Virus record (IMG/VR): IMGVR_UViG_3300037070_003533
Coordinates: 1 to 27,475 of that record
DNA length: 27,475 nt
Origin: a virus
Direction: 5' to 3' (one strand)
Shown here piece by piece: positions 4,020 through 27,475 of the stretch. The translations under genes and the position numbers were made by a program. The notes beneath the pieces are model-generated. The model saw only the letters and a list, made by a program, of their open reading frames with translations. It was not told the DNA's origin and searched no databases. Position 1 is the first letter of the stretch, and each line of letters begins with the position of its first letter.

Positions 4020-5855
4020 TTACTTGGCGGGTGGAGCAGACTGGGCCATTTCAGCCGCGGCCTGCTTCATACGCTGTGTTATTAGTTCTGCATTTGGATA
4101 CTCCAAACGCTTAAGCACTTCTTCACCGTCGATAATCTGACGGTCAAACAAGTTGAGCACCCGTTGCTCGGTCTCTTGCTTGCTAAACGGTAGTCCTGAG
4201 ATTGTGTTAACCCGAACATCCATCTCGCCACGAATTTCGTACTCCTTGGCCTCATCTGATGGGACGGTTTGCTGCAAGTCGTTCTTAACGTAGTCACGAA
4301 CAACAGCGACCCTCTTGGTGCTACCGTCTGGTTGCTCGCGATGTTCCACGTGAAACTTAAAGTACTTATTTGAGCCTTCTTGGTTAGTTAGGCGAAATAT
4401 TTGCGGTGCGGTGTAATACTGCATAACTCGAGATACATACTGCTCACCAAAGTCACGAAGCATAGAGTCAATATTTCTGACCTTTTGCTTAACCCTCTTT
4501 TGAGCGGCGTCGAGTAGGTTCTCAATCGCAGCGTTTGCCGTTACACCAGTCGGGTTAATCCCGCGTGTTACGTCCTGATCACCAGCGGTATCGTTAAACC
4601 ACTTCTCCATACGGTCCATGAATTGGAAAACCCACGGCTGTAACTGAACACCCTCAACACGTTGCGGTGCAGCATTGGCGTTATGCTCAACAACTAAGCC
4701 GGGCTCACTCGTTAAGTGACGGCTATCGGCACCTGACTCAATTGGGTTTAACCAAATCGGGTTACCCATGAGCATAAGAACGTCTAGGCCGAAGTTAACC
4801 ATCTTATTGAAAGTGGCTTGCGGTCCTTTTAGGTTCTCAAGTTCGTCAATACCGTAAAACTCGCGTGGTAATGCTGAGTTTACAAACCGTTGGAATGGAA
4901 ACTTAAGGTCATCGTACTCAAGAGGCCCGTCTTCCATGATGAAGTTGTTGATCTTGACGACTTTGCGACCGCGTGGGTATTTCAAGCGGGTAATGTAAAG
5001 TGTTTCGCCACCAGCTTCATCTTGTTGCTCGATCTCTTCAGTATCAGACGGCTTAAGGTAGGCGGTTAGTACTAGAACCTTGTCTTTTAGTTCCTCATCA
5101 GGACCCTTGCCGTAGGTTAATCGGTCTACTGCAATATCTAGATCGGTGTGTCTTTGAACGTGGAGCGTTTCGGCCGATTTCTTAGCGCGTGATAAGTCGT
5201 CCATATCAGGTTTAATTTGAGTAACGTACTTATGGCCCGCGTATTTCTTCTTTATTTTGTCTAAATCCCAAGGCTTTGCGTCAATTGCATACTCGGCCTT
5301 CTTATTGATATCGGTCGCATCTGGATCCATATACAAATCAAATGGATCTTTTGCGCCCCAATCGATACCGGGCTTACCAGCTTCAATATTCTCACACCAT
5401 TCGCAGTGACCAATACCGACTGAGTATAAGTGACCGTCGAGCATGATGCTGAATAGCTCACTCATCCAATCATTCTTTTGCCAATCAGCTTCGAATACTT
5501 GGTTTAGGATTTGAGAGAATTCTAAATCTGAGGGGTCTTGTGGTAAGAAACCGACCGTCGGACGAGTATCCATCATTACCGCAGTTTGACCCTGGATAAC
5601 TCTGAATATCATGTTGATAACTTCACGGTTCTTATAGCTAGGGCGGCGATTACCAAGCTGTTGACCACGATAGAACTTGTAGTTTTCAGCCCATGATTTG
5701 TCGTAGCGTTTTCTGTGTTTAGCGGCTTTCTTAAATAGCTTATCGACCTGCTTAGCTAACTCTAGCTCCTCAGGGGTCGGATTAGCCTCATCGTTTCCTT
5801 CGGTTGCTTGCGGACGTGGACTATTGGGGTCTAGCTGACCTGTGCCGTAGCTCAT
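4020..5855 (-). CDS. Portal protein (P22-like family)
   Basis: A 611-residue protein with the P22-type portal pattern. It has an N-terminal helical region (KLFKKAAKHRKRYDKSWAEN), then VINMIFRVIQGQTAVMMDTRP at about 80-100. A central block has DPFDLYMDPDATDINKKAEY, a clip-side region has FPFQRFVNSALPREFYGIDE, and a late helix-rich section has RVKQKVRNIDSMLRDFGEQY. The dodecameric portal forms the DNA entry vertex and docks the terminase. Its ATG overlaps the upstream zinc-ribbon stop (ATGA). A P22-like portal is common in podoviruses, but tail type cannot be decided here. Confidence 0.88.
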   Translation of the reverse strand: MSYGTGQLDPNSPRPQATEGNDEANPTPEELELAKQVDKLFKKAAKHRKRYDKSWAENYKFYRGQQLGNRRPSYKNREVINMIFRVIQGQTAVMMDTRPTVGFLPQDPSDLEFSQILNQVFEADWQKNDWMSELFSIMLDGHLYSVGIGHCEWCENIEAGKPGIDWGAKDPFDLYMDPDATDINKKAEYAIDAKPWDLDKIKKKYAGHKYVTQIKPDMDDLSRAKKSAETLHVQRHTDLDIAVDRLTYGKGPDEELKDKVLVLTAYLKPSDTEEIEQQDEAGGETLYITRLKYPRGRKVVKINNFIMEDGPLEYDDLKFPFQRFVNSALPREFYGIDELENLKGPQATFNKMVNFGLDVLMLMGNPIWLNPIESGADSRHLTSEPGLVVEHNANAAPQRVEGVQLQPWVFQFMDRMEKWFNDTAGDQDVTRGINPTGVTANAAIENLLDAAQKRVKQKVRNIDSMLRDFGEQYVSRVMQYYTAPQIFRLTNQEGSNKYFKFHVEHREQPDGSTKRVAVVRDYVKNDLQQTVPSDEAKEYEIRGEMDVRVNTISGLPFSKQETEQRVLNLFDRQIIDGEEVLKRLEYPNAELITQRMKQAAAEMAQSAPPAK

Positions 5856-6244
5856 TCTATTTTCTCTCCCCTGATGATTTTCTTCATTGCGTATTCGACG
5901 GGCTCAAGGGACTTCTCTGTGCGGGCGTCGGCTTCATCATTCAGTTTCTTCTCTTGTGACGCCATGACTTTACTGACGTCCTCGTTACCGACTTCGATTA
6001 AACCACGTTCTTTAGCGATACGTTCGCGGTGCTTAGCATTCTTTACGACACACCCCAGCCCAGCGTTGAACTCGGCTTTATCCCAATCAGAGGCCCCATT
6101 AAAGTTTACCGCAACCAGATAGCGCTTGCTATCCGACTGGCATTTCGGACAGGTTTCAGGGTCCTCGATGTTTCGGACTGATTTGATTACATCGAAGTGA
6201 TGGTCGCAGTTGGTGTTTAGACAAGAGTATGGGTACGTAGGCAA
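5852..6244 (-). CDS. FmdB-type zinc-ribbon protein
   Basis: A 130-residue protein. Residues 1-40 hold a zinc ribbon with Cys8, Cys13 and the pair CPKC (about 32-35), in the pattern of the FmdB/CxxC_CxxC_SSSS regulatory family (PTYPYSCLNTNC). The rest is charged and helical without a known domain. It sits between the Fis-type HTH gene (1-base gap) and the portal (4-base overlap). Small zinc ribbons of this kind are frequent in phage packaging modules, with no established role. Confidence 0.7.
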   Translation of the reverse strand: MPTYPYSCLNTNCDHHFDVIKSVRNIEDPETCPKCQSDSKRYLVAVNFNGASDWDKAEFNAGLGCVVKNAKHRERIAKERGLIEVGNEDVSKVMASQEKKLNDEADARTEKSLEPVEYAMKKIIRGEKIE

Positions 6245-7796: not shown

Positions 7797-8078
7797 TTAC
7801 GTTAACAAATGGATCTTAGCCTTAGCTTCGGCTTCGGCTTTTACCCACCCCGCAGCCTCCATCATTTTCTCGTCTAGCTCTTTTATATCATCAAAGTCTT
7901 TAACCACGATAACGTAGCACTGACTCTCAAGGAAAAACTCATGCCCAAGGCGAGAGAATTGCTCTGCTAGGTAGGGTTCTTTAACAAGTAGGACTTTGCA
8001 ACCTTCGTTATTGACTAAGCCACGTACGCGCTCGATAAAGCCTGATTTGAAGGATGTTATTTCGGTTGGTTCGCTCAT
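7797..8078 (-). CDS. Hypothetical protein between NeuB and terminase
   Basis: A 93-residue, mixed alpha/beta protein beginning MSEPTEITSFKSGFIERVRG, with an Ala/Glu/Lys-rich C-terminus (AEAEAKAKI). Its start overlaps the NeuB stop (ATGA), so the two are translationally coupled. No known domain recognised. Coupling to NeuB leaves open a role with it, but packaging accessory is equally possible. Confidence 0.65.
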   Translation of the reverse strand: MSEPTEITSFKSGFIERVRGLVNNEGCKVLLVKEPYLAEQFSRLGHEFFLESQCYVIVVKDFDDIKELDEKMMEAAGWVKAEAEAKAKIHLLT

Positions 8079-8872
8079 GTTTTCTTCGTCCTATAATACC
8101 CATTCAATTCAGGCACCCACCTACGTTTAGAGTACTTGATGAAGTCGGCTTCGTCGGGGTTCGGGAATATATATTGTTCGTCGGGTATAAGAGACCGTAT
8201 CTGCGAAACCATAAATTTGAATTCTTCTGGCAATATCGAGTGTGGGTTATCGGGTGTATTCATATCCCTAATCTTGAAATGTTTCTCTATAACCGTCGCC
8301 CCAATTTGAGCTGCGGCGAAACATTCTTGCCCTGTAGTTGTGTGGCAAGAATAACCCACCCTGTTACCAAGACGACGTTGCAGTCTATCTACTCCCGCTT
8401 TTGATATACAGGCATTATCCGACGGGTAGACAGAAACGCAATACATGGCGGTTAGGTTTGCTTCTGGATAAAGCTCAAACGGCTCCATAATCTCCTGAAA
8501 CGTACTTCCCCCCGTCGAAAACAGAATCGGCCTGCTAAGCCACACAACCATCTCCCAAATATTTGGATCACTCGTCTCCGCACTCGCAATCTTATGCCGC
8601 TTTACATACGGATCTATCATTTGATAGCCAATGGGCGAGAAAGCCGTACACATAAATTCAATTGAAACTTCTTTACACTTATCAGCAAGGATTGGGACCC
8701 ACTCGAAAGGTAACTCGCCATCCATCTCGCCGTCGTATCCGTATAGTTCTCTGTGTGTGTAAAGTTGGTATTTGACCGCATCCGCACCGCATTCTTTCGC
8801 AGCGACGATGCTATCTAGGCAGTCTTGTAGGTTGGTCCAGTTGCTACCCACCTCACAAACGATAAAGGTCAT
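8075..8872 (-). CDS. neuB: NeuB-family sialic/nonulosonic acid synthase (lacks SAF domain)
   Basis: A 265-residue TIM-barrel enzyme of the NeuB family, which condenses PEP with an N-acylated hexosamine to form a nonulosonic acid. Visible motifs are CEVGSNW (Glu7), GADAVKYQ (29-36), HKIASAE (93-99), ILFSTGGST (116-124), CVSVYPS (145-151), GYSCHT (173-178, usually GYSDHT) and VIEKHF (194-199). His177 and His198 are 21 residues apart, the spacing of the two Mn-binding histidines in meningococcal NeuB. Typical NeuB is about 340-350 residues and ends in an antifreeze-like SAF domain, which is missing here. GGAGG sits 7 bases before the ATG, and both ends overlap neighbours by 4 bases. It lies between the terminase genes. 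Confidence 0.88.
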   Translation of the reverse strand: MTFIVCEVGSNWTNLQDCLDSIVAAKECGADAVKYQLYTHRELYGYDGEMDGELPFEWVPILADKCKEVSIEFMCTAFSPIGYQMIDPYVKRHKIASAETSDPNIWEMVVWLSRPILFSTGGSTFQEIMEPFELYPEANLTAMYCVSVYPSDNACISKAGVDRLQRRLGNRVGYSCHTTTGQECFAAAQIGATVIEKHFKIRDMNTPDNPHSILPEEFKFMVSQIRSLIPDEQYIFPNPDEADFIKYSKRRWVPELNGYYRTKKT

Positions 8873-15978: not shown

Positions 15979-16224
15979 ATGCAAGAGGACTGGAAAGACC
16001 TACCCCTATATAGAGCAGCGTTAAAATATAAAGTTACAGCGCGCACTATCCAACGTTGGCGCAAACGGGGATTTAGACCCGAACGACAAAACTACTCCGA
16101 AGATTTTAAACAATTTGCTTTAAGCGAGGCGAAAGCGATCGGGGCTATTCCGACGTGTAAAAAATTAGGTATAGCGAAAGACACTATTTATAACTGGATT
16201 AGAGAAAAAAGAGGGGGCGGATAA
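15979..16224 (+). CDS. Helix-turn-helix DNA-binding protein
   Basis: An 81-residue protein with two HTH-like parts. The first is ALKYKVTARTIQRWRKRGFR (about 14-33). The second resembles the transposase/Brinker-type HTH: NYSEDFKQFALSEAKAIGAI, then CKKLGIAKDTIYNWIREKRG (about 60-79). It is the first gene behind the boxed promoter, and its stop shares one base with the RecT-like ATG. Likely a regulator or DNA-replication accessory. Confidence 0.7.
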   Translation: MQEDWKDLPLYRAALKYKVTARTIQRWRKRGFRPERQNYSEDFKQFALSEAKAIGAIPTCKKLGIAKDTIYNWIREKRGGG

Positions 16225-16964
16225 TGGCAGATGAGCAACAATCGGTAGTAGTAAAACAGCCTTTAAGCGACTGGGATATTCTGCGGCACCAAGCCGACAC
16301 TTTGGTTAAGTCGGGATTTTTACCGACTGCGATTAATACATGGCAAAAAGCTACGGCGATGATCATGTACGGTAAAGAACTTGGTATGGGTCCTATGGAG
16401 TCAATCCAATCGATTGACGTGATCCAGGGTAAGCCGACTCAGAAACCACAGTCAATGAAAGCAATGGTCCACAAGAAACTGCCAGGTGCGGTATTTCGCG
16501 TTGTTAAGAGTGACGATAAATCCTGTGAGATTGAAGCCGCAAGACCCGGCGATACAGTTACCAAGTTTATTTTCACGATCGAGGACGCCGCACGCCTTGG
16601 TTTGACAAATAAAGATAACTGGAAAAAACAACCCAAAGTAATGCTGCAATGGCGCTGTATCGGTCACGTTGCAAGAACCGTGTTTCCTGATTGTCTATCT
16701 GGGGTTTCCTATACTCCCGAGGAGATGGGCGCTGAAGTTGACGATGAGCACAATATTATTGAAGTGAAACCAGAGCCGAAAACCCCAACGCCGGAGGTTG
16801 TAAAAAGTGAACCAACAATTAGTGAATCGGTTAGTCAAGGAAGCAGTGGAGATAGCCCACAAGAGGCTCAACCCGCAGGACGAATTAGATCAAGAATACG
16901 GGCCTTGGATGAAACTAGTTCCGGACCCGCGACCGGTCTATTTAAAGCCGACGAAACCAAGTGA
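16224..16964 (+). CDS. RecT-like single-strand annealing protein
   Basis: A 246-residue protein. The segment LRHQADTLVKSGFLPTAINT, then KATAMIMYGKELGMGPMESI and QSIDVIQGKPTQKPQSMKAM (about 15-80), is the conserved start of a phage RecT-like family. It continues through WKKQPKVMLQWRCIGHVART (about 132-151) and YTPEEMGAEV. The C-terminal 60 residues are low-complexity Pro/Ser/Glu. It would anneal complementary single strands during recombination-dependent replication. No partner exonuclease is adjacent in this operon. Confidence 0.72.
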   Translation: MADEQQSVVVKQPLSDWDILRHQADTLVKSGFLPTAINTWQKATAMIMYGKELGMGPMESIQSIDVIQGKPTQKPQSMKAMVHKKLPGAVFRVVKSDDKSCEIEAARPGDTVTKFIFTIEDAARLGLTNKDNWKKQPKVMLQWRCIGHVARTVFPDCLSGVSYTPEEMGAEVDDEHNIIEVKPEPKTPTPEVVKSEPTISESVSQGSSGDSPQEAQPAGRIRSRIRALDETSSGPATGLFKADETK

Positions 16965-20750: not shown

Positions 20751-20904
20751 CCGACTCGTATACGCGTTTTGCTCTGTAGGCATCCATCTCACGTTGAAAC
20801 CGCTGAAAAGCTTCCCACGCCTCTTTATTGTCCTTTAGGCGGGACAGGTAGATATCAAAGAACTTAATCGCGACCGGAACTAGCAAGCTAAGAAATGAAA
20901 GCAT
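20692..20904 (-). CDS. Small membrane protein with charged helix (spanin- or holin-like)
   Basis: A 70-residue protein. The N-terminal hydrophobic helix (MLSFLSLLVPVAIKFFDIYL) is followed by a long charged helix (NKEAWEAFQRFQREMDAYRA), the shape of an inner-membrane spanin or small lysis protein. Its ATG overlaps the upstream lipoprotein stop (TAATG). Pairing with a lipoprotein is suggestive, but that partner is larger than usual outer spanins. Confidence 0.5.
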   Translation of the reverse strand: MLSFLSLLVPVAIKFFDIYLSRLKDNKEAWEAFQRFQREMDAYRAKRVYESAKGQRARLDEKIDDGSSDK

Positions 20905-21620
20905 TATTCGATGCTCCTTACTAAGATTTCTTCGTAACCAATAGTCGTTAAGCGGTGGGTTTTCTTCTCGCCCGCTTCTTCTTTAAATATGTACGTACAG
21001 ACGCCCTTGATAACAGGGAAAATGAATTTCTTACCCGAGGACCGCGATGCAATCTCACCAAGTGGGCAATTAGCATCTGGGTGAACCGCAACGTCCGATG
21101 CAAACTCTATCTCTTGAACAAGTCCGAAACGAGCACCACACGCTGATACACCCATAGCTTGGTATGCCGTTCCGTCGCAGCGCAAAGTTGCGGGCAGCTT
21201 ATCGATATCGTTTTCAAAGTCGATAAAGCCAAAACTGTGTTTACCCGTATCTTTTGAAAAACCCGTGAGGTCTAGCGGACAGTCCTCTAGTTCAAGGGTT
21301 TGCGGAGTAAAGCCAACCTTGCCATTTCGGCGTTTAGTGCCAAATAAGCCGTAACGCTCGTTCACGTTTTCTAGAACCATTTCGCGGTGGCACGACTTAA
21401 CCGTTAATAGATCCATCGTCTGCTTAGACTCAATTTCGATATCGTACTTAGGCGCTTTACGAACAACCAAAACACCAGACGAGGAAACACCGTTAACCGT
21501 GAGCTTCATATCGTAGCGATAAACTATTTTTGGGTCTGGTTTGAGAATTTGCGGGCTAGCCAAATCTTGCAGCGTACTACAAGAGACCAAAAGCAAAGAA
21601 AGGAACGCCAGTTTAAACAT
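20904..21620 (-). CDS. Putative lipoprotein, unknown
   Basis: A 238-residue protein with a short signal (MFKLAFLSLLLVSC; lipobox LVSC, Cys14) and a beta-rich body with several Cys (for example SCHREM, LEDCPLDL, SACGARFG). No known family recognised. Overlaps the following membrane-protein gene, so the two are co-translated. An envelope-located phage protein is likely: a lysis part, or one that alters the infected cell surface. Confidence 0.6.
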   Translation of the reverse strand: MFKLAFLSLLLVSCSTLQDLASPQILKPDPKIVYRYDMKLTVNGVSSSGVLVVRKAPKYDIEIESKQTMDLLTVKSCHREMVLENVNERYGLFGTKRRNGKVGFTPQTLELEDCPLDLTGFSKDTGKHSFGFIDFENDIDKLPATLRCDGTAYQAMGVSACGARFGLVQEIEFASDVAVHPDANCPLGEIASRSSGKKFIFPVIKGVCTYIFKEEAGEKKTHRLTTIGYEEILVRSIE

Positions 21621-21656
21621 TGCTTAAACCCCGCAATTAGAAGTTGAACGATGAAA

Positions 21657-21672
21657 GGCCGAAGTACCGGCC
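21657..21672 (-). terminator. Short hairpin, weak terminator candidate
   Basis: GGCCG and CGGCC form a 5-bp GC stem with a 6-base loop just after the stop of the 21678-21956 gene. On the minus strand only TTT follows, so termination may be partial. It could separate that gene from the lipoprotein pair. Confidence 0.4.
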
Positions 21673-21677
21673 ACATA

Positions 21678-21956
21678 CTAATCTTTGATTTTCTTAAAAG
21701 CTTCTTTTGCGCCAAGCATTAGAGCCAAGAGAGATCCTTCAGGGTCTTCTTTCGCCGCAGATAAAGCTGCTTTGTAGTTGGCTATCGCTTTAATCATGGC
21801 GATGATTTCTTTTGAAACGACAATAGCCGCACCGTCTTCGATCGGTTGAAAACCGTCCTCTAGTTTTTCGTCAACTAGATCGACAAATGCAACAACGTCT
21901 AGCATCAACCCGTAAACTGCCTTTGGCACTTCAAGCGTAATGACTTCCTTTTCCAT
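21678..21956 (-). CDS. Hypothetical protein
   Basis: A 92-residue acidic helical protein starting MEKEVITLEVPKAVYGLMLD, rich in Ala and Lys. AGGGAG lies 9 bases before the ATG. No domain recognised. A bacterial-style small cytosolic protein by composition. Confidence 0.6.
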   Translation of the reverse strand: MEKEVITLEVPKAVYGLMLDVVAFVDLVDEKLEDGFQPIEDGAAIVVSKEIIAMIKAIANYKAALSAAKEDPEGSLLALMLGAKEAFKKIKD

Positions 21957-21993
21957 AAAAACGACTCCCTTCGTTTGTGGTGGTAATTCTATT

Positions 21994-22191
21994 TTACTTG
22001 ATAAAGCCGGAAAATAAACCGCCCAGGACGCCCCAGAATGTGCTTTTAATTTTTACTGCACCGAGATCTTTATCAAGACCGTGGACGGTGTCTTGAATGT
22101 CACTTAGCTTACACTCGACCTTTTCAAGCCGACCCTCAATGCGCTCAAGGGATTTGACAACGAATAGTTCGTGTTCGGGCCAACCGCTCAT
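21994..22191 (-). CDS. XhlA/holin-like small membrane protein
   Basis: A 65-residue protein. An N-terminal coiled-coil helix (LERIEGRLEKVECKLSDIQD, then DLGAVKIKS) is followed by a C-terminal hydrophobic segment TFWGVLGGLFSGFIK. This layout matches small XhlA-type (haemolysin) phage proteins that work with holins. AAGGA lies 8 bases before the ATG. It would help the lysozyme reach the wall. Confidence 0.5.
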   Translation of the reverse strand: MSGWPEHELFVVKSLERIEGRLEKVECKLSDIQDTVHGLDKDLGAVKIKSTFWGVLGGLFSGFIK

Positions 22192-22257
22192 ACGTCGCGT
22201 CCTTGCTCTGTAAGTGGTCTATATATACTACCACGCAATCGTGGTTAGGCATAAATA

Positions 22258-22506
22258 CTACCCACCAATTTTATCATGAGCGAGACGTTCCTGCTCTAGA
22301 GCCCAAAGGGACTCCTCGTCGTTAACGACGGGTTTATACTTAACCCTCGTTTTTTGGGGGAGAATTGTTTTCTTAATCGAGTCTACGGCGTCAGCTAGTG
22401 GTTTAGGCGATAGGCTTTTAGCTACCATGTAAACGATTAAAATCTGCAGCAGAAATACTATAAAGATGAGCAGATACAAAATTGCCAGATCTATAGTAAA
22501 AGTCAC
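22258..22506 (-). CDS. Small membrane protein
   Basis: An 82-residue protein from a GTG at 22506 (AAGGGA 7-8 bases upstream); an ATG at 22521 would add five residues. A strong transmembrane helix lies near the N-terminus (AILYLLIFIVFLLQILIVYM), followed by a basic, then acidic, cytoplasmic tail. It overlaps the GNAT gene by about 90 bases in another frame. Its start seam repeats that of the gene at 22191. Possible holin. Confidence 0.55.
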   Translation of the reverse strand: MTFTIDLAILYLLIFIVFLLQILIVYMVAKSLSPKPLADAVDSIKKTILPQKTRVKYKPVVNDEESLWALEQERLAHDKIGG

Positions 22507-22924
22507 GTCGCGTCCCTTCATGCTCTAAGCCCAGTTTCTCAAACATTTTTATAGCGCGGTTCCCATCGAAACTCTCACCGTAGATGCGGTTTAATCCGAG
22601 CGAATGAAAGCCCCATTCAAAGAGCGAAATAAGCCCGTCTTTAGCGAAACCTTGGTGCCAATACTCAGGGCCTACATAGAGCGAAAACTCAGCCCTGCGG
22701 TTAACCATGTCAATATCAGTCAACCCGCAGACGCCGACCAGTTTGTCGTCCACATCCATCGCAAACATTTCGATCTTGGGGTCGACCCTTTGTTTTTCCA
22801 ACCAATCGCAATGGTCCTGAAAATGAAGCGGAGCAAACTGACGGCACCATTTATAAATTGCCGGATCATTTCGCCATTCAAATAGATATTTTAGGTCCCA
22901 GTCTTTAATCCGCCTTAGTCTCAA
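22418..22924 (-). CDS. GNAT N-acetyltransferase (PseH/RimJ-like)
   Basis: A 168-residue protein, read from a TTG at 22924 (AAAGG nearby) that overlaps the preceding gene by 20 bases. LFEWRNDPAIYKWCRQ (about 14-29) and AEFSLYVGPEYWHQGFAKDG (acetyl-CoA loop, about 78-97), then NRIYGESFDGNRAIKMFEKL and GLEHEG, match the GNAT fold used by PseH-type amino-sugar acetyltransferases. In this cassette it would acylate the amino sugar before the NeuB step. Substrate inferred from context. Confidence 0.75.
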   Translation of the reverse strand: MRLRRIKDWDLKYLFEWRNDPAIYKWCRQFAPLHFQDHCDWLEKQRVDPKIEMFAMDVDDKLVGVCGLTDIDMVNRRAEFSLYVGPEYWHQGFAKDGLISLFEWGFHSLGLNRIYGESFDGNRAIKMFEKLGLEHEGTRRDFYYRSGNFVSAHLYSISAADFNRLHGS

Positions 22925-23102
22925 CCTTTGCCCCGCCTTCTTTCATTACACGGTCGTCCTCGTGTGCTTTTAGCATCCACCAGATAGCCTCTTGGCATTT
23001 AGCTAACGCCATGTCTTTACCGAACCCATCGGGGACGTTCTTATAGACGTAGTTAACGCACGGCTCAAAATGCTTTACTGCTTCACTAATTTTTGGATCC
23101 AT
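22905..23102 (-). CDS. Small helical protein, possibly Acb2/Tad1-hairpin-like
   Basis: A 65-residue protein from ATG 23102 (AGAGGG 6 bases upstream); a longer reading inside the aminotransferase is unlikely. MDPKISEAVKHFEPCVNYVY is followed by VPDGFGKDMALAKCQEAIWW and MLKAHEDD. The pattern Pro-x-Gly-x-x-Lys-x-x-Ala-Leu-x-Lys-x-x-Glu-Ala-x-x-Trp resembles the helical hairpin of Acb2-type anti-CBASS cyclic-nucleotide sponges. It overlaps both neighbours in the sugar cassette. The match is by memory of a short pattern and stays tentative. Confidence 0.45.
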   Translation of the reverse strand: MDPKISEAVKHFEPCVNYVYKNVPDGFGKDMALAKCQEAIWWMLKAHEDDRVMKEGGAKVETKAD

Positions 23103-24285
23103 CTCGTACCCTCTGTGCAAATGGTGATTTAGGCATAGCGCCTTGAAGTTTGACCTGACCAAGCTTCATGCGCGAAACAAATGATTTTAGGAACTCAAAG
23201 AACTGATAGTCAAACTCGCAGTTAGCGAATGAATAGAACCAGCTAGGACCGAACAAGAAACCCGCCTTTATAGCCTCTTGAAAGAATAAAGCCTTGTTAA
23301 CAGGATCGCCGGTGAATACGCCCCTAGTCGGGTAAGCCTCAAGAGCCACATACGGGTTAGCAAGCTCATTAAACCGCTTAATAAATTGTTCGCCCTGTTC
23401 AATTAACTTACCAATTTTGTAATTGTGTTTATTTAGCAACGTATCAACAGTCCAGCGACAAGAAGCAAGTGATAGGGTTTCGCCGGCGTAAGTCGATGAA
23501 ACAAAATAGCCACCGTCCATGATGGCTTTCTTGCCGCCAACAGCCGCTAATGGCAAACCGTTAGCTATTGCTTTACCGAGCAGAATTAAGTCGGGGTAGA
23601 TATTTGTTGCTAGGGCGACTGAATGTTTGTCAAAACGAAAGGCTGTAATAATTTCGTCAAAAATAAGCACAGTACCAGACTTATCACAACGACTTCGCAG
23701 ATTTTGTAGCCACGCAATTCGCTCATCGTCGAGCTTAGAAATAACCGGCTCAATGATAACAGCAGCAACATTATCGAGAGGTATCGACTCATCAAATCTA
23801 ACAATATCAGTGCAAGTATGAACGCCGGTTGCAGGGCTAGTAAGACTAACAAACTCATCCTCGTGTCCATGATAACCATCCGATAATACTAGTTTTCTTC
23901 CTGTATATGCTCTCGCCATTTTAATAGCCGCAGTACACGCCGCAGAGCCTGACTTTAGAAACTTAAACTTATCGACGAAGTAGAACATGCTCTTCAAGGC
24001 CTCAGCCGTTTCAACTTCATCAGTCGTCGGCAAGCTGTGGCTAAAACCTTTTTGCATGTGACGCGTTAAAGTTTCGATCAGAGATGGATGCGAATAGCCA
24101 AATAGATTGCAGCCAAGACCACAAATATAGTCCACATATCTGGTCCCATCAGTTCCGTACACCCACCCCTGGCTACCACCTGATATATGCGTCGGATATA
24201 CTCCGAAAACATGGCTATCGGGGTGCTTACTGTTCGTTAGCGCTCCCTGCGCTACCGAGTCTTGTGCACGTACCCACCAAGCCAT
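23086..24285 (-). CDS. Class III aminotransferase (glutamate-1-semialdehyde aminomutase-like)
   Basis: About 399 residues, PLP enzyme. The start ATG 24285 (1 base after the cytidylyltransferase stop) is chosen because MAWWVRAQDSVAQGALTNSK matches the usual family start; GTG 24312 and ATG 24306 are alternatives. Motifs: FLKSGSAACTAAIKMARAYT (109-128, cofactor phosphate), YHGHED (138-143), VLIFDEIITAFR (206-217, Asp210), and GKAIANGLPLAAVGG (237-251, PLP Lys238). Aminomutase-like enzymes of this type are common in surface-sugar clusters. It probably aminates a keto-sugar. Bacterial pseudaminic/legionaminic clusters normally use a DegT-type enzyme instead. Confidence 0.83.
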   Translation of the reverse strand: MAWWVRAQDSVAQGALTNSKHPDSHVFGVYPTHISGGSQGWVYGTDGTRYVDYICGLGCNLFGYSHPSLIETLTRHMQKGFSHSLPTTDEVETAEALKSMFYFVDKFKFLKSGSAACTAAIKMARAYTGRKLVLSDGYHGHEDEFVSLTSPATGVHTCTDIVRFDESIPLDNVAAVIIEPVISKLDDERIAWLQNLRSRCDKSGTVLIFDEIITAFRFDKHSVALATNIYPDLILLGKAIANGLPLAAVGGKKAIMDGGYFVSSTYAGETLSLASCRWTVDTLLNKHNYKIGKLIEQGEQFIKRFNELANPYVALEAYPTRGVFTGDPVNKALFFQEAIKAGFLFGPSWFYSFANCEFDYQFFEFLKSFVSRMKLGQVKLQGAMPKSPFAQRVRDGSKN

Positions 24286-24286
24286 T

Positions 24287-24991
24287 TTAGAATCTAAAGA
24301 CTGCATAGCCACGCTCTTTTGCTAATTTATATTTATTATCAAGGCTCGTCTTTTTTCGGGTAACGGTTTCAAAGTCCTCTAAGGTATCTACACTGAGCTT
24401 AATATCGGCCAGATCAATATGGGCAAGCACCACACCAAAACGTGCCCAACGCGGCTTTTCACGCCGTAGTAGCGTCGTAACGTGCTCCTGATCAAACGAA
24501 CTGGTAGCGTTATCGACAAGCCATTCAAACGCCCTAGCCGAGATAATCTCAACGTCGTAACCGTCAACAAAGGTGCGCATATCCTCGTAAGCATTTGAGC
24601 AGTAATCGAGGTTAATACCAATCGACGCGGTAATGTGCTTTGTAATGATGGTCGGGATAATTAGCGGGCAATCACCCGTTAACCGCACGATGTAGTCAGG
24701 CGAATATTTTTCGTAAGCAATCCTATATCGCTCAAGGACGTTATCCTCAGGACCTTCAATTACATCACGCTCATCAAAATGGTCTTTTAGCGGGTCATCT
24801 TTAGGAACAACCAAACAGGTTTTAGCTGTGATGTTAGTGCTACCCGACGCACGATTTACATAAGATGCGCTAAGTTGTGCGGTATTGAAAACATGCCCCG
24901 CCATGATTTGATCATCGATTATTCTAAGAGACTTTCCTGGTAGGCGTTTACTGCCCGATCTGGCTTGGATTGCAATTAAGACTTCTGGCAT
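24287..24991 (-). CDS. SpsF/NeuA-like cytidylyltransferase
   Basis: A 234-residue nucleotidyltransferase. IAIQARSGSKRLPGKSL (6-22) is the nucleotide-binding loop of the CMP-sugar synthetase/SpsF group. GPEDNVLERYRIAYEKYSPD, then YIVRLTGDCPLIIP (about 81-114), has the metal-binding Asp. It would activate a keto-acid sugar as its CMP derivative, the donor expected by the Maf-like enzyme. It overlaps the oxidoreductase gene by 16 bases. Confidence 0.8.
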   Translation of the reverse strand: MPEVLIAIQARSGSKRLPGKSLRIIDDQIMAGHVFNTAQLSASYVNRASGSTNITAKTCLVVPKDDPLKDHFDERDVIEGPEDNVLERYRIAYEKYSPDYIVRLTGDCPLIIPTIITKHITASIGINLDYCSNAYEDMRTFVDGYDVEIISARAFEWLVDNATSSFDQEHVTTLLRREKPRWARFGVVLAHIDLADIKLSVDTLEDFETVTRKKTSLDNKYKLAKERGYAVFRF

Positions 24992-25596
24992 GCGTGCTCC
25001 AAAATCTTAGCAACCTTAGTGTGGGCGTGAAGCGCATACTCCCAGTTAGATATCGGGTTAGCAATCCAGCGGTCGATCATGTCGATATAGGCTTGATCCA
25101 TCATTTCGATACCAAGCTGTTTACCGTTAATCGTGCATTGCCACTCAGGACTAGTGTTATTGACGATACAGCCGTCTTTTGCTAGGCCGAGAACATTAAG
25201 ACAATCCCAGTAGAGCCCATCGCCCCCTGTTTTGAAATAGTTGTAATAAGAAGGCTCATCTTGAGCGGTGCCAGCTATTTCGGCGTACTGGTTAACCATA
25301 GAAATCAGGTGCCGATCGCTTCTCCAAACGTCGTTAACGTCGAGCAATGCGGAAAGCTCCTTAGTTAACGGTTTCTCGCACAAGATCGGCTTTTGAAAGC
25401 TTAGGCAGGCTGAAATGTCAGCCAGGTGTCTTTCGGTTGGTGTGCAAACAATAAAATGAGTCGCCTCGTGAGCCTGATAATGAAACGGTTCGTTCTTATC
25501 GTGACCAACGTGCGCTACACCAAGAAAGTTAAGAATAGCTTTGTAACGAGAGGCCATATTGCCGTTATAGCCAAGTATGTAAACGAGTTTATTCAC
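24976..25596 (-). CDS. Gfo/Idh/MocA-type oxidoreductase, short
   Basis: A 206-residue protein. The Rossmann start LVYILGYNGNMASRYKAIL (4-22, GxxGxM form), THFIVCTPTERHLADISACL (46-65) and KPILCEKPL (69-77) identify the family. Usual length is about 320-350 residues, so the C-terminal substrate domain is reduced. It sits between the dehydratase and cytidylyltransferase genes, overlapping both. In surface-sugar clusters such enzymes oxidise or reduce sugar nucleotides or nonulosonic acids. Confidence 0.75.
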   Translation of the reverse strand: MNKLVYILGYNGNMASRYKAILNFLGVAHVGHDKNEPFHYQAHEATHFIVCTPTERHLADISACLSFQKPILCEKPLTKELSALLDVNDVWRSDRHLISMVNQYAEIAGTAQDEPSYYNYFKTGGDGLYWDCLNVLGLAKDGCIVNNTSPEWQCTINGKQLGIEMMDQAYIDMIDRWIANPISNWEYALHAHTKVAKILEHACQKS

Positions 25597-26452
25597 CGAG
25601 TGTCCTTTCGACTAAAGCCATTAATTCATCGTCAGTGTATTTTGGCGCAGTGTTGCTTTTAAATTCAAAATCAGGGTCGTGATAATCGAGCGACTCGTGC
25701 ATTTTCTCGCCAGGCCTAATAGGTATTGGAACAACCTTGTAATCATTGATACCCAAGTACTGCGCGGTAATACGAGCAAGGTCGATTAATGCCGCAGCTT
25801 TCATATTTGGGATATAAGGATTGCCGTCGTTTCCAAACTTAAAGTTTTCGAGCATAAAGTTTGCCGCGTCGTCAATGTGGATCCAGAAGCGGGTCATATG
25901 TAAATCTGTGATGTATACTTTACGTTCTTGTTTCAGGGTTTGGACAAAGCTATGAAGCACAGAGCCCCTAGAACCGAGCACGTTACCCCATCGGAAAACA
26001 TTGTAGATATCTCCGCCGCTTTTTACACCAGCGTCAAACCAAACCTTTTCAGACAAGGCTTTGCAATACCCGTAGCTATTGATAGGTAGCACCGCTTTAT
26101 CGGTCGACGAGAACACGGCATAGCTAACCTCACTAATCCGGCAAGCTTTAGCGACGTTAAGTGTTCCGGTTAAGTTGATTTTGATGCACTCAGATAGATT
26201 TGTCTCAGCGAGGTCCACGTGCTTCATCGCGGCTAAGTGAAATACTACGTCAGCGTCCCAACAGGCCTCGGTAACGCTTTCTAAATCACGTACATCACCA
26301 AGAACATAGCGACATCCGGGATATGTGGCGGCCATTTTCTTCTGCTTAATTTCTTCGCGGGAAAATATGGTTACTTCGTGACCAGAGAGTAAAAGCTTTG
26401 GGGTCAAAGCGTTTCCCAGGGTTCCAGTTCCGCCAATAAGTAAAACTCTCAT
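25589..26452 (-). CDS. UDP-GlcNAc 4,6-dehydratase-like (PseB/FlaA1 type)
   Basis: A 287-residue SDR enzyme from ATG 26452 (AAGGGA 5 bases upstream), preferred over an upstream in-frame GTG. The NAD(P)-binding loop GGTGTLG is at 7-13. FHLAAMKHVDLAETNLSECI is at 71-90. The catalytic set is SSTDKAVLPINSYGYCK with Asp118, Lys119 and Tyr127 (PseB-like). FRWGNVLGSRGSVLHSF and RPGEKMHESL follow, all typical of PseB/FlaA1/CapD short forms. It would make a 4-keto-6-deoxy sugar nucleotide, the first step of pseudaminic- or bacillosamine-type sugars. First enzyme of the cassette. Confidence 0.87.
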   Translation of the reverse strand: MRVLLIGGTGTLGNALTPKLLLSGHEVTIFSREEIKQKKMAATYPGCRYVLGDVRDLESVTEACWDADVVFHLAAMKHVDLAETNLSECIKINLTGTLNVAKACRISEVSYAVFSSTDKAVLPINSYGYCKALSEKVWFDAGVKSGGDIYNVFRWGNVLGSRGSVLHSFVQTLKQERKVYITDLHMTRFWIHIDDAANFMLENFKFGNDGNPYIPNMKAAALIDLARITAQYLGINDYKVVPIPIRPGEKMHESLDYHDPDFEFKSNTAPKYTDDELMALVERTLGE

Positions 26453-26453
26453 T

Positions 26454-26687
26454 CTAATCCCTTCGAATGAAAACGCTTTCGGGTGCCACGCGTTCAATGT
26501 GAAATAAGACGTCACCACGAAGCAAATCGGCCATGAATTGCTGGGTTTCGTAGCTTGGGTTTTCTTTAAATTTGTTTTTTAAGGATTTGAGTTGTAGTTG
26601 GAAATTTCTGGCGCGAAATACCCAAAAAAGCGCTAATAGAGACATGAAAATACACAAAGCCGCCAGGGCATAAACCATAAAAAGCAT
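26454..26687 (-). CDS. Small single-pass membrane protein, first gene of sugar cassette
   Basis: A 77-residue protein. ATG 26687 is chosen because a TTG at 26696 lies inside the operator dyad. One N-terminal transmembrane helix (YALAALCIFMSLLALFWVFR) is followed by a basic coiled stretch and a conserved-looking tail (PSYETQQFMADLLRGDVLFH, then IERVAPESVFIRR). Short phage membrane proteins with this tail are familiar but unassigned. Its stop lies one base before the dehydratase start. Confidence 0.6.
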   Translation of the reverse strand: MLFMVYALAALCIFMSLLALFWVFRARNFQLQLKSLKNKFKENPSYETQQFMADLLRGDVLFHIERVAPESVFIRRD

Positions 26688-26691
26688 AAAC

Positions 26692-26748
26692 GTCAACTTT
26701 TAAAAATTAATATGTATTAACTCTAAAAGTTGACCGCCTATATGTCAA
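26692..26748 (-). promoter_or_regulatory. Sugar-cassette promoter with nested operator dyad
   Basis: On the minus strand TTGACA (26748-26743), a 17-base spacer and TAGAGT (26725-26720) form a promoter. A perfect 11-bp inverted repeat (GTCAACTTTTA at 26692-26702, TAAAAGTTGAC at 26724-26734) encloses a second dyad TTAATATGTATTAA (26707-26720). One arm overlaps the spacer and the -10 edge; the other lies past the start site. This would give the cassette its own regulated transcription. Confidence 0.6.
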
Positions 26749-26753
26749 GAAAA

Positions 26754-27475
26754 CTAGATGCGAGCAATTTGCGTGATAATAAACTGCACGAAATTTCCCG
26801 TCGCCATACCGGAAGCCACCCCAACATGCGGCCTAACCACGTCAGCAGCCGCAAGTCTAACTGTTACCGCAACGCATCCCGGACCGTTAGTACCGCCGTT
26901 TGACGTGATACCAGCCAAGCGCTCAGCTGCAGATAGGGCTAAAACTCCGGTTGTTAAGTTGGCCGAGTTTAAAGAAATACCCATATCAAGCACGCTCGCC
27001 GAACTTAATGAGTTGGTATAGGTGATTGAATAAACCCCGGGCTGATTAATCGTAAATGTTGTAGCGGTAGTAGCCGCATCAGCAGCAGTGATCGAGGTAC
27101 CCACGGTCGTAAAATTGGTTAGCCGCGCAATTCTGGTACTCGTCGATCCAGTAGTTGCGATGCCCGTATCGGCGCGAATCTGCCCGTTCACCACAAGGTC
27201 TTTTCTTATAAAAAGCCACCCGGTTCCGTCGCACTGAATAGTCACGGAGTCATATTGAACATACATCGTGTATGTTGTAGCGCCATCGATGGTTTCGGAG
27301 TTCTCGCCATCAAGAATACACTTACCCACGCCACTATCGACTTTTTTGATGGTGATTCTTCGACCCGAGTTATCCGCAGCTGTCGGCAATGTAATTGTTC
27401 TATCAGAGGCTCCGGTAGTCATCCAAATGATGTCAATACCATCAGTATCAGTGATAACGTAGTCAGCGCTTTCTT
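26754..27475 (-). CDS. Tail fibre / appendage-like protein, C-terminal part
   Basis: The frame is open through the right edge, so this is the 3' 240 codons of a longer gene. An internal Met at 27422 is not the true start: the codons before it (SADYVITDTDGIDIIW) continue a usual motif with TTGASDRTITLPTAADNSGR and RITIKKVDS. Late Gly/Thr/Ala beta-strand blocks (FTINQPGVYSITYTNSLSSA) resemble jelly-roll C-terminal domains of appendages. It is expected to be the last gene of a tail module lying outside the window. Confidence 0.75.
   Translation of the reverse strand, partial: ESADYVITDTDGIDIIWMTTGASDRTITLPTAADNSGRRITIKKVDSGVGKCILDGENSETIDGATTYTMYVQYDSVTIQCDGTGWLFIRKDLVVNGQIRADTGIATTGSTSTRIARLTNFTTVGTSITAADAATTATTFTINQPGVYSITYTNSLSSASVLDMGISLNSANLTTGVLALSAAERLAGITSNGGTNGPGCVAVTVRLAAADVVRPHVGVASGMATGNFVQFIITQIARI

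Follow-up and report, generated by a model that had tools for sequence, protein, structure and literature searches.

The window, that is the whole stretch of 27,475 nucleotides analysed here (positions 1 to 27,475 of IMGVR_UViG_3300037070_003533), ends within a fibre gene, of which only the 3′ part (26754-27475, minus strand) is included. A sugar cassette follows on the same strand and is headed by a small gene (26454-26687), the first after the putative promoter considered below, which encodes 77 aa from the ATG at 26687 or 80 aa if a TTG at 26696 is used. Its product was read by eye as a membrane protein from the hydrophobic N-terminus. Next come genes for a nucleotide-sugar dehydratase/epimerase (Polysacc_synt_2; 25589-26452, start picked by alignment), a GFO/IDH/MocA-like oxidoreductase (24976-25596, with a Pfam match slightly under the cut-off), a cytidylyltransferase (24287-24991, domain match to CTP_transf_3), a class-III aminotransferase (23086-24312) and a GNAT acetyltransferase (22418-22924), all on the minus strand. 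A NeuB-type synthase gene at 8075-8872 adjoins the terminase gene region, and the gene families at 22418-26452 together with this synthase are, judged by the known pathway, presumably a nonulosonic-acid-type cassette. The small protein belongs to a family that accompanies the cassette and combines a hydrophobic N-terminus with a conserved C-terminal stretch, DL..G.A.V.....DP...F..SP; no Pfam model matched more than one of 25 members at E 0.05. An MptE-like protein (PF01973, E 2.8e-18) is encoded at 354-1361. The MptE-like domain occurs in Maf-type glycosyltransferases, which attach nonulosonic-acid-type sugars to flagellin. Residues ~196-280 of the same product gave a weak match, possibly by chance, to the phiX174-like major spike protein G (E 0.0058 among solved structures, and E 0.0048 in Pfam, below the curated cut-off).

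Between the fibre gene and the small gene lies a perfect 11-bp inverted repeat (26692-26734), the arms of which (26692-26702 and 26724-26734) are 100% complementary and separated by 21 nt. As the preliminary description had reported, it encloses a second dyad, TTAATA-CA-TATTAA, at 26720-26707 on the minus strand, and by coordinate arithmetic the centres of the outer (26713) and inner (26713.5) dyads are half a base apart. The near-consensus −35 with correct spacing described there was likewise recovered, with TTGACA at 26748-26743 on the minus strand followed, after a 17-nt spacer, by the −10-like hexamer TAGAGT (26720-26725, minus strand, 4/6 matches) within what would be the 5′ arm of an RNA hairpin. 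Together TTGACA-17 nt-TAGAGT matches 10 of 12 positions of the sigma-70 consensus, which is assumed here to apply to the host. Placed by rule 7 nt past the −10, the predicted transcription start falls at 26713 (minus strand), in the hairpin loop (26712-26715). The element does stand directly after the fibre gene, as had been claimed: the stop TAG occupies 26754-26756 on the minus strand and TTGACA begins after 5 further bases, while the ATG of the small gene at 26687 starts four bases past the 43-base palindrome on that strand.

No other perfect inverted repeat in the window has arms of 11 bp or longer and a loop of 3-30 nt. Twenty dinucleotide shuffles of the whole window gave one such repeat in all (mean 0.05), and shuffling the local 120 nt 1000 times produced none. 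Taken alone, the promoter match was not significant, since 3 promoter-like sites were found in 24000-27475 against 5.8 expected, and it is conservation, rather than the match, that supports the putative promoter in the window. No site was called at 26692-26748 when an intrinsic terminator, with a G+C-rich stem and a T run, was considered. The sole Rfam match in 26500-27000 was V_IGR5, which scored 21 bits where the gathering score is 75 (E 0.76), and was taken as chance.

For close comparison there is a single sister contig, G001 (IMGVR_UViG_3300037119_003295), which is identical to the window over 5737-26734, that is 20,998 bases with zero mismatches, an identity that breaks off right at the outer dyad edge (26734/26735). 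The dyad is kept letter for letter in this one close relative found, together with the cassette, in line with the conservation that the preliminary description had proposed to check. Past 26734 there are 4 mismatches in 26735-26741, ATGTCAA is common to both at 26742-26748, and nothing aligns beyond. The fibre gene has been replaced, the G001 fibre (386 aa) displaying no significant similarity to the fibre end of the window, although TTGACA and its 17-nt spacing are retained between flanks that both differ. Because the fibre stop precedes TTGACA by 5 bases in the window and by 1 base in G001, the joint is biologically sensible and unlikely to be a random misassembly. Drift would hardly account for four differences in seven positions beside 20,998 identical bases, and 26735-26741 most likely arrived together with the other fibre gene. 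In that case TTGACA was present in the donor as well, equally far from the palindrome, and this points to selection on the −35.

The replacement region corresponds to 26735-27475 in the window and 5014-6174 in locus L084, and is a recent exchange between phages that are otherwise identical. Immediately upstream of its fibre gene the sister has a gene for an HNH endonuclease (L084 6194-6670), and the phage encodes a RecT-like annealing protein at 16224-16964. In another contig, G005, one open reading frame joins a G001-like N-terminal part to a window-like C-terminal part, which argues that these fibres are exchanged in pieces. Inversion of the fibre gene was considered and rejected, as the fibre end of the window did not align to G001 or G002 and was found in 0 of 3 records, an empty answer that is weak alone. 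The window, G001 and G002 appear to overlap as pieces of one genome of ~36.6 kb, of which the window would lack ~9.9 kb, bearing tail-type genes, between its two ends.

The 43 bases in the sense (minus-strand) orientation were calculated to fold at −14.9 kcal/mol (z −6.2) into a hairpin (26692-26734) consisting of the perfect 11-bp outer stem and an inner stem, linked in the sense RNA through a bulge and three pairs, two of them G-U and one A-U. The antisense of the same bases reached −10.7 kcal/mol, and the sense fold was better than the antisense at three of four chosen loci and equal at the remaining one. In the window version the stem is extended (26685-26742, minus strand), as UAUAGGCG (26742-26735) pairs with CGUUUAUG (26692-26685) and the AUG is included, and in the sister phage another, shorter pairing reaches the AUG in one fold but not in the fold of a slightly different stretch. 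In read-through RNA the hairpin is predicted to cover the ribosome site and start codon of the small gene, and RNA from the predicted start, placed by consensus, would lack the 5′ arm. The calculated cost of opening the ribosome site in the window was 13.7 kcal/mol for the read-through RNA and 3.3 kcal/mol for RNA from 26713. The small gene has no recognisable Shine-Dalgarno sequence in the window (AAAAGTTGACGTTTATG).

On balance we think it probable that the 5′ arm of an RNA hairpin contains a sigma-70-type promoter here and that the element acts as a transcript-origin switch. Read-through RNA from the fibre gene would hold both arms and fold a 19-bp hairpin, longer with the flanking stem, in which the start of the small gene heading the sugar cassette would be hidden. 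RNA begun at the embedded promoter would start in the loop, have the 3′ arm alone and be unable to fold the hairpin, leaving the start of the small gene open to ribosomes. The head of the cassette would in this way be translated from its own promoter and be insulated from late read-through. We infer from the sequence that transcription does start at the promoter, that read-through RNA is made and that the two RNAs differ in translation; as to timing, it may be late rather than early read-through that is blocked, because the upstream gene is structural. The cassette may be expressed outside the late phase, as the preliminary description suggested.

In distant relatives, including five contigs of 36-37 kb, the cassette comes next to a fibre gene whose N-terminal domain is the same, and on its downstream side. 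The small gene precedes the dehydratase gene, except in G009, G012 and G014, where it is second, and in G013, where the dehydratase gene is located elsewhere. Scanning with the N-terminal domain of the fibre yielded 61 loci, with the small protein in 32 (E up to 0.004) and the dehydratase in at least 24, and from a dehydratase scan the best 80 of 398 confirmed loci were kept. Loci L104-L244 number 141, not all of them on separate contigs, and in 60 the small protein was found at E 0.001. These 60 loci contained 39 distinct leaders, of which two were dropped for being more than 85% alike, leaving 37 non-redundant leaders from the two scans. The phage under study is represented among them by its sister, as L104, and for L140, L141 and L147 the leader is that of the dehydratase gene, after which the small gene comes there. 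The hypothesis of a promoter within a hairpin was written down after L104, L146, L121 and L106, before the dehydratase scan gave L181 and L236, and these two fit it closely, with TTGACA, a long stem and, by eye, a clear Shine-Dalgarno sequence paired in the stem.

Leaders were subjected to a joint test, passed when a promoter of at least 9/12 matches has its start in the loop of a hairpin, with the start codon of the longest open reading frame. Seven of the 37 leaders passed (L146, L131, L108, L104, L142, L181 and L121), compared with 0/37 antisense leaders and 1/257 upstream regions of other open reading frames in the same loci. Dinucleotide shuffles (n = 200) gave a mean of 0.78 and a maximum of 4, none reaching 7, and under five other sets of thresholds 4 to 7 leaders passed, a number never equalled in 200 shuffles. 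When the promoter threshold was lowered to 8/12 the controls climbed to 6/257 upstream regions and 1/37 antisense leaders. Among the nine leaders obtained from the later scan alone, one (L181) passed the main joint test and two (L181 and L236) a wider setting. The thresholds and statistics of this test and of the accessibility test were designed after the first cases (L104, L146, L121 and L106) had been seen.

In the accessibility tests, in which start codons were set by rule, a relief of at least 6 kcal/mol was found in 7/37 leaders (L146, L181, L236, L104, L113, L131 and L126) and 4/366 intergenic controls, the controls being richer in G+C than the leaders (0.47 vs 0.33). Against AT-matched controls, consisting of 814 upstream regions of open reading frames, intergenic and other, the same relief was found in 6/29 AT-rich leaders and 9/814 controls. 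Promoter-like sites of at least 9/12 were also commoner before the cassette (16/29 AT-rich leaders vs 120/814 AT-matched controls). A first version of the test, also at 6 kcal/mol, had given 6/37 leaders against 0/257 controls, with shuffles (n = 60) at a mean of 0.30 and a maximum of 1; starts closer than 8 nt to the codon were left out of it, which removed L146, and later versions allow 6 nt. With start codons and start sites chosen by hand, as for the window, the opening cost fell from 25.2 kcal/mol in read-through RNA to 3.3 in promoter RNA for L146, from 18.7 to 3.1 for L181, from 18.5 to 4.5 for L236 and from 11.8 to 4.1 for L131. Three leaders from the joint test (L121, L108 and L142), and L106 at 8/12, gained at most 2.2 kcal/mol at the ribosome site, two of the four losing, and L236, L113 and L126 passed the accessibility test but failed the joint test at its main setting. 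The trusted core is L104 (the phage under study), L146, L181, L131 and L236. Outside the sister, the layout recurs in some relatives with sequences unrelated to that of the window, and it was absent from 30 of the 37 leaders in either test.

The chief rival reading is that the palindrome serves as a DNA operator, at which a dimeric repressor of phage or host would bind over the −10 and the start and repress the cassette promoter. The perfect 11-bp palindrome does overlap the promoter-like sequence and is centred on the predicted start, TTGAC at the −35 forms, in either variant, one more inverted pair with an arm of the dyad, and an HTH protein of 81 aa, encoded at 15979-16224, is a candidate binder. 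We nevertheless hold an operator to be unlikely, as the nested half-sites lie off one axis (26713 vs 26713.5), the middle of the stem relies on G-U pairs, the RNA folds better in the sense orientation at three of four loci, and the relatives with the layout have other sequences. A search for an operator common to other phages found the exact dyad, with a gap of 10-40 nt, only in the sister contig among viral contigs. Copies before other genes, for which the preliminary description had suggested a search, were not found either, as there is no further arm copy in this record: a second exact dyad is absent from the window, and copies of the arms with up to two mismatches occur at chance level (10, both arms included, against 10.8 expected). 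This weighs little, because the record is without part of the genome and one-site repressors exist. From the earlier view of an independently controlled cassette, a promoter-like element apart from the fibre gene thus stands, as the sister and the relatives indicate, whereas its control by an operator is not favoured. An operator is at the same time compatible with a hairpin, both being described for T4 I-TevI (PMC2988022).

Less probable still is a hairpin for mRNA processing or for protection of the 3′ end after the fibre gene, either an RNase III site or an exonuclease barrier, beside which the promoter match would be accidental or secondary. A long AU-rich stem right behind a structural gene would suit such a role, as would the strong stem of L106, which leaves the ribosome site free, but the sister keeps TTGACA at its exact spacing, promoter-like sites occur more often ahead of the cassette than in the controls, and in L104, L146, L181 and L236 the stems extend to the start region and do not float in the gap. 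It is very improbable that the palindrome is a recombination joint only, a site-specific or annealing crossover point for fibre swaps with no role in expression. The identity with the sister stops precisely at the outer edge of the dyad, and the RecT-like annealing protein and the HNH gene beside the fibre gene of the sister are present, as such a joint would suggest; the window and G001, however, each have a single dyad, which gives no second site copy for site-specific recombination and no site pair for inversion, and the incoming side has kept TTGACA at promoter spacing, for which there would be no need at a mere crossover point.

Phage promoters tied to inverted repeats are known from N4, where the promoters of the virion RNA polymerase have short stems and 3-nt loops and are read by a giant phage polymerase. 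In the window, by contrast, the stem is long and the promoter resembles that for sigma-70. The embedded-promoter reading is closer to T4 gene e, where the longer read-through RNA folds over the ribosome site and late promoters within the stretch encoding the 5′ strand yield RNA without the structure, and in T4 soc and 49 the Shine-Dalgarno sequence and/or the AUG is held in a helix (PMC3014915). Gene e and, by prediction, the window are alike in a ribosome site hidden by a hairpin and a promoter whose RNA cannot form it, but in gene e the promoters are phage late promoters and early read-through is blocked, whereas the window has a sigma-70-like promoter, a structural upstream gene and a sugar cassette. 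The T4-type late promoter (TATAAATA) is absent here, where the element is TTGACA-17-TAGAGT, and because of this absence the element is considered to work like that of gene e but is not filed as a T4 member. Similar arrangements of hairpin and promoter precede the endonuclease genes I-TevI, I-TevII, I-TevIII, segB and Aeh1 mobE, again with a hidden ribosome site and promoter RNA that cannot form the hairpin (PMC2988022). These leaders serve homing endonucleases, three of them intron-encoded with a consensus Shine-Dalgarno sequence in that account, unlike the small gene of the window, which is without an evident one. In the seg43(25) leader of Aeromonas phage 25 the ribosome site is free and a stable hairpin stands shortly before it, as in the relative L106, and no embedded promoter is described for it in the passages used (PMC2988022).

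More tentatively, the junction between fibre gene and cassette in this lineage of uncultivated phages may repeatedly have gained a ribosome-hiding hairpin with a buried sigma-70 promoter, from unrelated sequences, by which, in the inverse of the gene e switch of T4, late read-through would be silenced and the cassette licensed from a promoter accessible to host polymerase, the same element possibly serving as a joint for fibre exchange that spares the control of the cassette. If this holds, a device known mainly from T4-like phages and their homing endonucleases would have arisen in phages unrelated to them too, equipped there with a host-type promoter, probably timed the opposite way and protecting genes that would alter the sugars of the cell surface or the virion. 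As the layout is kept while the sequence turns over, motif searches would miss such switches, and the combined test of promoter and accessibility can be used to look for them.

Searches of databases gave few relatives. The phage collection contained no DNA match for 20800-27475. Among isolate and genome relatives, the cytidylyltransferase search gave no match, the tail protein search gave one weak match (23% identity), and the terminase search matched 435 records, with an identity of 24-26% among the matches listed (20). A scan of genome contigs with the fibre domain confirmed 0/55 stretches, and one with the oxidoreductase confirmed 28/419, short and weak and in bacterial records, which were taken for cellular relatives. 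In viral contigs, single-sequence scans with the dehydratase, the small protein and the fibre of the sister found the sister alone, and a scan with the fibre of the window confirmed 0/24 stretches. A literature search showed, among the entries listed, no paper on a hairpin-promoter switch before a sugar cassette.

Since most leaders are without the device and some have terminator-like hairpins, the common theme may be a separate handling of the cassette by varied means across the relatives, the hairpin promoter being one. The nearest upstream open reading frame of at least 60 codons ends less than 35 nt away in 10/37 leaders. Terminator-like hairpins with T runs were seen near the start of the cassette in L136 (5186-5270) and, by eye, in L183 (2468-2530), and are perhaps another way to insulate it.
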